Assembly: GCF_003226255.1 (NCBI RefSeq)
Contig: NZ_QJST01000007.1
Location: forward strand, 1-64,000
From: Idiomarina fontislapidosi
GTDB taxonomy: Bacteria; Pseudomonadota; Gammaproteobacteria; Enterobacterales; Alteromonadaceae
DNA length: 64,000 bases
Direction: 5' to 3'
Each line of letters opens with the position of its first letter. Within the stretch, counting starts at the first letter, position 1. The notes beneath the pieces are model-generated. The model saw nothing but the letters and a program-made list of their open reading frames with translations. It was not told the origin of the DNA and ran no database searches. Made by a program: the position numbers and the translations under genes. Of the stretch, positions 34,076-44,226 are shown one piece after another.

Positions 34076-34188
34076 GGTGACCCTGCGGGTCCCCTCGCGA
34101 CACTAACTGGCAAACCCGGTCAGGCCCGGAAGGGAGCAGCCGTAGTCGGGGATGTGGGCGCCGAGGTGTGGCTGGTAGGGTCGCCACC
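34076..34188 (+). ncRNA. ffs: Signal recognition particle RNA (4.5S RNA)
   Basis: The 113-nt RNA has the invariant SRP domain IV core GGTCAGGCCCGGAAGGGAGC with its GGAA tetraloop and the asymmetric loop bases, and long terminal pairing between GGTGACCCT (34076-34084) and the AGGGTCGCCACC region (34177-34188). It binds Ffh and directs ribosomes making membrane proteins to FtsY. Ends are inferred from the closing helix. It fills the gap between the isomerase gene and the convergent HDAC gene; no T-rich terminator is obvious after it. Confidence 0.95.
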
Positions 34189-42321: not shown

Positions 42322-44226
42322 ATGGCTTATCAAGTGCTTGCGAGAAAATGGCGTCCGATGCAGTTTGACCAGGTCGTCGGTCAACAGCATGTGTTGGAGC
42401 CTTTATTTCATGCGCTTGAGCAACAGCGTTTACATCACGCCTACTTATTTACTGGTACGCGCGGTGTGGGAAAGACAACCATTGCGCGTATCCTCGCTAA
42501 GGCACTCAATTGCGAACAAGGTGTGAGCGCGCACCCCTGTGGTGAATGTCAAAGCTGCCAAGAAATTGAACAAGGCCGATTTGTCGATCTGATAGAGGTC
42601 GATGCTGCATCACGTACAAAAGTCGAAGATACACGTGAATTGCTGGATAATGTCCAATATCGTCCAACCCGTGGTCGCTACAAAGTGTACTTAATCGATG
42701 AAGTACACATGTTGTCGCGTCACAGTTTTAATGCGTTATTAAAAACGCTCGAAGAACCGCCCGAACATGTAAAATTCCTGCTCGCTACAACCGATCCTCA
42801 GAAATTACCTATTACCGTTGTCTCGCGATGCTTGCAGTTTAATTTACGCGCGCTCGATCGCGAGCAAATTGTCGGTCAACTCGCTCACGTACTAGGCCAA
42901 GAAAAAGTCGTATACGATAAGCAGGCACTTACATTGCTCGCGCAATCGGCCAAAGGAAGTATGCGTGATGCGTTGAGTTTAACTGATCAAGCAATCGCGC
43001 AAGGACAAGGCGAGGTTAAAACTGATTCAGTGCAACGCATGTTGGGTCACCTTGCAGATGCGCGAGTACACCCGTTGCTCGATGCGCTCGCCGATGGTGA
43101 TAATGGGACGGTCTTTGCTAAGTATGAAGAACTTAAGGGGCTGGTACCCGATCCGTTGATGATTCTTAATGAGCTCCAGCGTGTCATTCACCGCCTAGCA
43201 TTAGTTCAACAGATTCCTGCAATGATGGGCGCTGAAGATAAAACTAAAACAACTCAGACTCTTTTGCGCAAACTGCCTGCCGAAGTACTGCAGCTCTATT
43301 ATCGGATAATTATCGAAGGCAAAAAGGAAGCGCCTTTCGCCGTTGATCCGCAAAGTGCCGTTGAAATGACGTTGCTACGATTGTTGTCTTTCACCTTTGC
43401 GAGCGGTGACGCTCATTCAGATATGGACGAACAGCCGCCAACATCCGAACTCGATATGATGGCAGCGCAGGATGAGTCGGCGCCAGAGCCCTCCGAACCG
43501 GCACCAACATCAGTCGCATACGATCAGCAAGATGATGTAGACCCAGTTGATGATGAGGCGACTTTGATAGCTCAGCAACGCGATATCGAAGCGCAAGCTG
43601 AACAGCAGCGCCCGACTGCTTCTCCTGACGATAGTCTGACATCACTACTGAATATGCGACAGGATTTGTCAGGCAATAGTCAGCAGACTGAAAAAAAAAA
43701 TTCTGAAATAGACGTTGAAACAGCTGCGGATGAACCTCATTTAGTAAGTCAGGAACAGCCGAAAGCGACGCTCAATACAGCGGGTAAAGTCGCAACCAAT
43801 TTAGCCGAGATACAGCAAAAGTTTGACGGTTCGACACGACGCGCAGCGGATGTCGACAGTTGGTCTGCATTAGTAGACGCAACCGATGTGCAAGGGTTAA
43901 CGCGGCAACTGTTGTTAAACTCGGTTTTAGAGAAAGTGGGGCATCAGCAATGGTGTATTTGGGTCACCGAAGAGCAACAGAGTTTGCTGAGTGAAAAAAC
44001 GGTTACATTGGCACGACAGGCGTTAGCAGATGTGTTATCTGCGCAAGGCGAGTATAGCTTTAATATTGGCTCACAGCAGATGGTGACACCGCTGCTAATA
44101 CAGCAGGCAATTGATCAGTACCGATTAGAGCAGGCTAAGCAGTGGCTAAAGACTGATACAGGCTTTAACGAATTAGTAAATACATTTGAAGCGGTGATCG
44201 ACGAAACGTCTATCAGCGCACGATAA
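42322..44226 (+). CDS. dnaX: DNA polymerase III tau (and probably gamma) subunit
   Basis: The 634-aa full product is tau, the clamp-loader ATPase that ties the polymerase cores together. Seen in order are Walker A GTRGVGKTT (45-53), the zinc cysteines C64, C73, C76 and C79, Walker B LIDEVHML, the sensor motif VVSRCLQF, domain III to about 370, an acidic Gln/Asp/Glu-rich linker (about 370-500), and a C-terminal tau-specific domain. An A10 tract at codons 457-460 could yield a gamma-like product of about 461 aa. It is followed by ybaB and recR, the conserved order. Confidence 0.97.
   Translation: MAYQVLARKWRPMQFDQVVGQQHVLEPLFHALEQQRLHHAYLFTGTRGVGKTTIARILAKALNCEQGVSAHPCGECQSCQEIEQGRFVDLIEVDAASRTKVEDTRELLDNVQYRPTRGRYKVYLIDEVHMLSRHSFNALLKTLEEPPEHVKFLLATTDPQKLPITVVSRCLQFNLRALDREQIVGQLAHVLGQEKVVYDKQALTLLAQSAKGSMRDALSLTDQAIAQGQGEVKTDSVQRMLGHLADARVHPLLDALADGDNGTVFAKYEELKGLVPDPLMILNELQRVIHRLALVQQIPAMMGAEDKTKTTQTLLRKLPAEVLQLYYRIIIEGKKEAPFAVDPQSAVEMTLLRLLSFTFASGDAHSDMDEQPPTSELDMMAAQDESAPEPSEPAPTSVAYDQQDDVDPVDDEATLIAQQRDIEAQAEQQRPTASPDDSLTSLLNMRQDLSGNSQQTEKKNSEIDVETAADEPHLVSQEQPKATLNTAGKVATNLAEIQQKFDGSTRRAADVDSWSALVDATDVQGLTRQLLLNSVLEKVGHQQWCIWVTEEQQSLLSEKTVTLARQALADVLSAQGEYSFNIGSQQMVTPLLIQQAIDQYRLEQAKQWLKTDTGFNELVNTFEAVIDETSISAR
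43691..43711 (+). other. A10 slippery tract in dnaX with stops in both other frames
   Basis: Ten consecutive As (43691-43700) in codons GAA AAA AAA AAT are followed by TTCTGAAATAG. A one-base backward shift (or one extra A in the mRNA) gives KKKF then TGA at 43704-43706. A one-base forward shift (or one missing A) gives ILK then TAG at 43709-43711. A truncated product of about 461 residues with domains I-III would result, as for gamma in E. coli (ribosomal frameshift) and Thermus (transcript slippage on A9). Confidence 0.75.

Follow-up and report, generated by a model that had tools for sequence, protein, structure and literature searches.

Does the run of ten As in the dnaX gene of Idiomarina fontislapidosi allow a single reading frame to be expressed as two clamp-loader proteins and, if so, is it the ribosome or RNA polymerase that slips on it? 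The question arises in a window of 64,000 nucleotides, by which we mean the whole stretch of DNA analysed here, and we address it by reading the tract against the dnaX genes of its relatives. We consider it probable that recoding is programmed at the A10 tract, where mostly RNA-polymerase slippage would generate a gamma protein of 461 or 462 amino acids beside the tau protein of 634 amino acids.

The A10 tract and the stops around it

The gene for the clamp-loader subunit tau lies at positions 42,322–44,226 of the forward strand and appears in the list of open reading frames as a product of 634 amino acids, which is what is made without slippage. Its identity is supported by a profile match to NCBIfam NF005942 (E = 5.1e-215, above the model's cut-off) and by a match of its product to 8gj0_B, a solved DNA polymerase III tau chain (E = 3.6e-140). 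Judged by eye, its neighbours are presumably an apt-like gene on one side and ybaB-, recR-, htpG- and adk-like genes on the other. Elsewhere in the window, Rfam models recover a small SRP RNA gene (34,084–34,180) and the 3' part of a 5S rRNA gene (1–83), both of them ordinary.

The ten As are where the preliminary description of this DNA placed them, at codons 457–460 (43,691–43,700, forward strand, phase GAA AAA AAA AAT), at 72% of the length of the gene. No other homopolymer in the window reaches a length of nine. In the 2.86-Mb genome (45 contigs), both strands together carry 11 runs of at least nine As, a count that comes from 12 pattern matches, two of them within the dnaX tract, and only the dnaX run reaches ten.

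Both shifted frames close shortly downstream on the same strand, as can be read from the sequence and from the list of off-frame stops. The −1 frame (AAA TTC TGA) ends at the TGA of 43,704–43,706, and would be entered through one additional A in the mRNA or through a −1 ribosomal shift; the product would be a gamma of 461 amino acids ending in EKKKF. The +1 frame (ATT CTG AAA TAG) ends at the TAG of 43,709–43,711, and would be entered through the loss of one A or the gain of two; with one A lost, the product would be a gamma of 462 amino acids ending in EKKILK (the end residues of both forms were derived by hand). That the stops follow "at once", as had been stated, is right in that both are there and inexact as to distance: one sense codon precedes the −1 stop, and in the +1 frame, with the codon of the last A taken as the first, the stop comes fourth.

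Domain III (residues 232–356; 43,015–43,389, forward strand; PF12169, E = 1e-20) would be present in tau and gamma alike, and the polymerase alpha-binding domain V of tau (residues 506–631; 43,837–44,214, forward strand; PF12170, E = 2e-25) would be absent from gamma. With residue 356 as the last of domain III and 506 as the first of domain V, the cut falls in the linker, some 100 residues beyond domain III; the earlier statement that slippage truncates the protein after domain III was thus correct, if loosely put. By the Pfam boundaries, a shift in either direction would cost the protein domain V and spare the clamp-loader core with about 100 linker residues. The 0 frame stays open through 44,226, domain V included, so the gene does not have the layout of two open reading frames (two-ORF) that some dnaX genes discussed below have.

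The course of events that we propose is the following. RNA polymerase would slip on the A10 tract, and some dnaX mRNAs would gain or lose As. Messages with ten As, or with ten plus or minus a multiple of three, would be translated into full tau of 634 amino acids, give or take a residue or so, and the other messages would be read to a stop within about four codons of the tract, giving a gamma that retains the ATPase domain and domain III. Some gamma may additionally be contributed by ribosomal slippage.

Conservation within the genus

Off-frame stops are common in these linkers, so that their presence in one gene is weak evidence. dnaX is present in all 19 congener genomes searched, with a lowest full-length identity to the window protein of 51%; eight of these genes aligned in separate pieces only. 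In every one the linker carries an unbroken tract (A10 in 18, A9 in one), which starts between codons 443 and 508 and always stands in the phase NAA AAA AAA A. The linker around it is poorly conserved, and within 90 nt on either side the longest invariant block of the alignment is formed by nine As of the tract itself. Five congeners (G001, G006, G007, G014 and G018) have a G after the ten As, which creates an in-phase A_AAA_AAG.

A tract of this kind might simply reflect selection for a pair of lysines in the protein, with no recoding at all, and most tract genes do encode E/Q-K-K at the tract, with N, T, S or K as the next residue. Codon usage speaks against it: the two central lysine codons of the tract are AAA in 19 of 19 congeners, with AAG confined to the last codon of the tract in the five A10G genes, whereas lysine codons elsewhere in the congeners' dnaX genes are AAA in 63% of cases (258 AAA, 149 AAG). 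Alignment of the relatives, which the preliminary description had proposed as a check, found the tract broken by synonymous codons in none of the 19. Together with the enrichment of stops in both shifted frames and with run lengths that peak at 9–10 and include few A8, this makes the lysine explanation very improbable.

The stops are conserved with the tract. All 19 congeners have a −1 stop no more than four codons away (the background rate in these linkers is 43%), and 18 of them have a +1 stop within eight codons (background 37%), the exception being G013 at 15, although the 19 congeners are related and do not amount to 19 separate trials. The +1 stop is within two codons in none of the 19 (background 13%), and the −1 stop is the closer of the two in all of them.

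Repeats of a single base are in principle prone to mutation at this length, and the tract could conceivably be a phase-variable repeat that turns tau on and off through replication slippage. The full tau frame is open in all 19 congeners, however, and the one congener that has A9 in place of the A10 of the other 18 also stays in frame; of the explanations weighed here, we give this one the least credence.

Tract and heptamer across the family

A search of the family found dnaX in 144 of 147 genomes, five of them from the source genus. Of the 139 others, 85 were examined (25 + 60 loci), and 84 gave an open reading frame by the start motif, the gene missed being that of G076; with the 19 congeners, the set comprises 103 dnaX genes from 52 genera. 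Four genes (G042, G066, G085 and G144) run off the end of their locus and were read only that far. A linker tract of at least nine As is found in 39 genes, and a tract combined with an in-phase A_AAA_AAG and a −1 stop within two codons in four more, all from the source genus; the A10G gene of G001, whose −1 stop is four codons away, is counted with the tracts. A further 46 genes have the heptamer A_AAA_AAG with a −1 stop within two codons, six have the heptamer with a farther −1 stop, and eight have neither signal.

All 43 runs of at least nine As in these 103 genes fall in the stretch from codon 341 up to the final 130 codons. None occurs in codons 1–340 (105,060 nt) or in the last 130 codons (40,170 nt), and the 103 genes contain no run of nine or more Ts. 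Linker run lengths are bimodal, with, by difference, three A8, 20 A9, 23 A10 and no run of 11 or more, a distribution unlike that of chance runs, whose numbers would be expected to fall steadily with length. The phase is identical in 39 of the 43 tracts. Taken with a tract left unbroken in every congener and with the presence of stops in both shifted frames, the confinement of these runs to the linker bears out the earlier proposal of selected slippage at the dnaX tract, for which the comparative support is strong.

Some genes depart from the common pattern. The dnaX of L077 (G020), with A9 at codon 378, is just 524 amino acids long, and those of two relatives in its genus are 671 and 881. Two others combine an A9 tract with A_AAA_AAG in phase and a −1 stop that lies farther off, L126 (G130) at codons 535–543 and L106 (G046) at codons 408 and 637, and are possible intermediates between two mechanisms.

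Ribosome or RNA polymerase

For a −1 shift on the ribosome, a slippery sequence and a −1 stop are required, and usually stimulators as well. If the transcript slips in both directions, stops are called for in both frames. The −1 stop is near in both classes of gene (in the heptamer class by definition), and the +1 stop is near in the tract genes: genus medians of its distance are 1–8 codons in 16 tract genera and 1–99 codons in 33 heptamer genera, 31 of which are at nine or more (Mann-Whitney p = 2e-7, with genera taken as independent). Of the 39 tract genes, 35 have both stops within eight codons (among those from other genera, 21 of 24), versus four of 46 heptamer genes.

The surroundings of the two signals differ as well. 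Measured against dinucleotide shuffles, the fold downstream of the signal has a mean z of −1.57 in heptamer genera (23 of 33 below −1) and of −0.24 in tract genera (3 of 16; p = 0.004 between the classes, genera again treated as independent), and in the next 40 nt, taken as a control, the values are 0.13 (1 of 33) and −0.20 (2 of 16). Shine-Dalgarno-like cores of at least four bases stand upstream in 35 of 46 heptamer genes versus four of 39 tract genes. The window gene has no strong downstream hairpin, as had been noted from its sequence (z 0.8 over the 40 nt downstream), and by eye the 15 nt ending 4 nt before its tract contain no three-base piece of TAAGGAGGT. An upstream fold of the nascent RNA was also considered as a stimulator of slippage and dropped, for it gave no signal (mean z −0.25 in tract genera, −0.10 in heptamer genera, p = 0.45). 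The two classes thus look like two mechanisms, although the differences in stops and folds could partly reflect local composition, tract and heptamer often occupying different positions in the linker.

The main competing explanation places the slip on the ribosome: on the in-frame A_AAA_AAA, tRNA-Lys(UUU) would slip by −1, or the ribosome would slide along the As, and gamma would end at the TGA of 43,704. That heptanucleotide does stand in phase within the tract, in all 19 congeners the −1 stop lies closer to the tract than the +1 stop does, and tRNA-Lys(UUU), with two genes, is the sole lysine tRNA found in the source genome; in the five A10G congeners, the in-phase A_AAA_AAG makes ribosomal shifting possible. 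Set against this, excerpts of the E. coli literature describe A_AAA_AAA as much less shift-prone than A_AAA_AAG (PMC5009743) and ribosome sliding as robust on A11 but yielding little on A9 or A10 (PMC4363877). Moreover, a pure −1 shift leaves the near +1 stops unexplained, and the window gene is without a downstream fold. We regard a mainly ribosomal origin of gamma as unlikely.

The preference for RNA polymerase over a ribosomal heptamer as the site of the slip, already voiced in the preliminary description, is thus supported indirectly, by the near +1 stops and by surroundings that in most tract genes have neither the fold nor the Shine-Dalgarno-like context of the heptamer genes. Transcription of Thermus dnaX slips at A9, giving gamma and tau (PMC1088944, in excerpt). 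E. coli RNA polymerase, in the excerpted account of PMC6260861, is much more prone to slip on T runs than on A runs; reporters with fewer than eight As showed no slippage, and none of the A runs that were tried lost a single base, which counts against a high rate of slippage on A10.

Lysine tRNAs

Atkins et al. (PMC5009743) suggest that the presence of two lysine tRNAs may be relevant to slippage in Thermus. In the source genome, ARAGORN assigned all 48 tRNA matches; two are tRNA-Lys(UUU), and no tRNA-Lys(CUU) was found among the 48, in a draft assembly that may miss some tRNA genes, given that tRNA-Ile(GAU) is absent from the same list. Patterns for the two tRNAs were run on 80 of the 103 family genomes. 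The UUU pattern matched 58 of the 80, including 27 of the 29 that bear a tract, and the CUU pattern matched none; the 22 misses of UUU mark the tRNA pattern as incomplete, and absence of CUU elsewhere is not proven by it. A second lysine tRNA as the explanation of the family's tracts was set aside, with this reserve, on the 0 of 80 CUU matches and the UUU-only source genome.

Turnover of the signal

A quick tree was built from DnaX residues 1–357 (103 rows; 27 of 100 inner branches have support below 80). The source genus forms one clade with genera g27 and g11 (SH-aLRT 99), and 23 of its 25 members have the tract. The remaining two, L062 (G028) and L052 (G044), one in each of the nearby genera, have neither tract nor heptamer. 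The expectation that relatives keep the tract, which stood in full for the genus, thus holds only in part beyond it, and tract-made gamma would not be indispensable everywhere; these two genes may represent a natural loss of gamma or another route to it.

Over the family tree, tract and heptamer have exchanged at least 11 times, with the four double genes counted as tract, the six weak heptamers as heptamer and the eight genes with neither left out; with three states the count is 17. Neither number separates gain from loss. Tracts start at codons 363–388, 404–415, 436–508, 535 and 809. That of the source genus comes after an LLxxRxxL-like stretch, and in many other genera the heptamer comes after NMLRSR, a likeness of context which suggests that one site may have switched mechanism.

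The wider order shows the same mixture. dnaX was matched in 116 of 119 genomes, and 67 further genes were examined (27 + 40 loci): 18 have a tract, 21 a heptamer and 24 neither, and three were not found, the start motif having missed L181, L182 and L211; the script scored a 22nd heptamer, in L158, which comes from a G8 run and is an artefact. One tract gene, L212, has 29% G+C, and its run may be drift at that composition. The A10G tracts of three genes of family f8 (L184, L185 and L186), at codons 430–463, include A_AAA_AAG in phase and are soon followed by a stop in each shifted frame. Among 80 named genes, the best 80 of more than 587 in a scan that may omit records close to the window, six have a tract (all A9), 36 a heptamer and 38 neither; A9 is found in Shewanella pneumatophori and S. 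sairae, and the heptamer in S. colwelliana and S. atlantica.

Genus g58 of family f7 combines two arrangements. Three of its tract-bearing dnaX genes are a single open reading frame (L197, L201 and L202), and in three others (L198, L199 and L200) a 0-frame stop comes right after the tract and a long −1 frame is open; the −1 frame pieces match PF12170, tau domain V, in both of the two-ORF genes of this genus that were searched. Single-ORF and two-ORF tract genes can stand side by side in this way under transcript slippage. Two-ORF dnaX genes are also seen in family f3 (L205, L206, L207, L213 and L214), and in those of both families an A9 or A10 tract lies near codons 359–370 with the rest of the gene in the −1 frame, so that tau itself seems to depend on slippage there.

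Relation to known systems

The window gene resembles dnaX of Thermus thermophilus in having one open reading frame for tau (634 amino acids here), a long A run (A9 there, A10 here; PMC1088944, in excerpt) and stops close by in both shifted frames, which in our case are known from the sequence. It differs in belonging to an unrelated lineage, in the place of the tract, at 72% of the gene and not at about seven-eighths as in the excerpted account of Thermus (PMC1088944), and in that only tRNA-Lys(UUU) was found in the source genome, where Thermus has two lysine tRNAs (PMC5009743). The Thermus type is further marked by mRNAs whose number of As varies and by gamma and tau at near 1:1. With the −1 frameshift of E. 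coli dnaX it shares the gene and the expected pair of products, and in many genera of the family the linker carries the E. coli-type heptamer, frequently preceded by a similar short motif. The window tract, however, ends in AAA AAT, with no AAG and hence no such heptamer in phase, and it has no Shine-Dalgarno-like core upstream and no downstream fold but does have a near +1 stop. In the two-ORF dnaX genes collected by GeneTack, nine of 17 have A10, and the authors infer transcriptional realignment (PMC3711429, in excerpt); tau needs the shift there, whereas here the 0 frame encodes tau.

The dnaX site of I. fontislapidosi is ordinary in kind, having its precedent in Thermus, and it is solid and informative. 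Among open-licence papers we found no report of slippage at a dnaX tract in the source lineage or of repeated swapping of the signal, and within the same literature searches combining dnaX, Idiomarina and frameshift, or dnaX gamma frameshift and Alteromonas, returned none.

What the tract may mean

On balance we lean towards the reading that the family has swapped its way of making gamma repeatedly, between a ribosomal shift on A_AAA_AAG and RNA-polymerase slippage on A9 or A10, at several sites in the linker and with its lysine tRNAs unchanged. A length of nine to ten As would suit a slipping polymerase and stay just below the length at which ribosomes slide.

For the proposed role of tRNA-Lys, the source family offers no support. 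As a set of close relatives that differ in their signal, the family nonetheless makes the choice between ribosomal and transcriptional slippage, and the part played by tRNA-Lys in it, open to experiment. The place of gamma in the replicase was long disputed (PMC5009743). If lineages keep re-inventing gamma by different machines and at different sites, then gamma itself would be under persistent selection.
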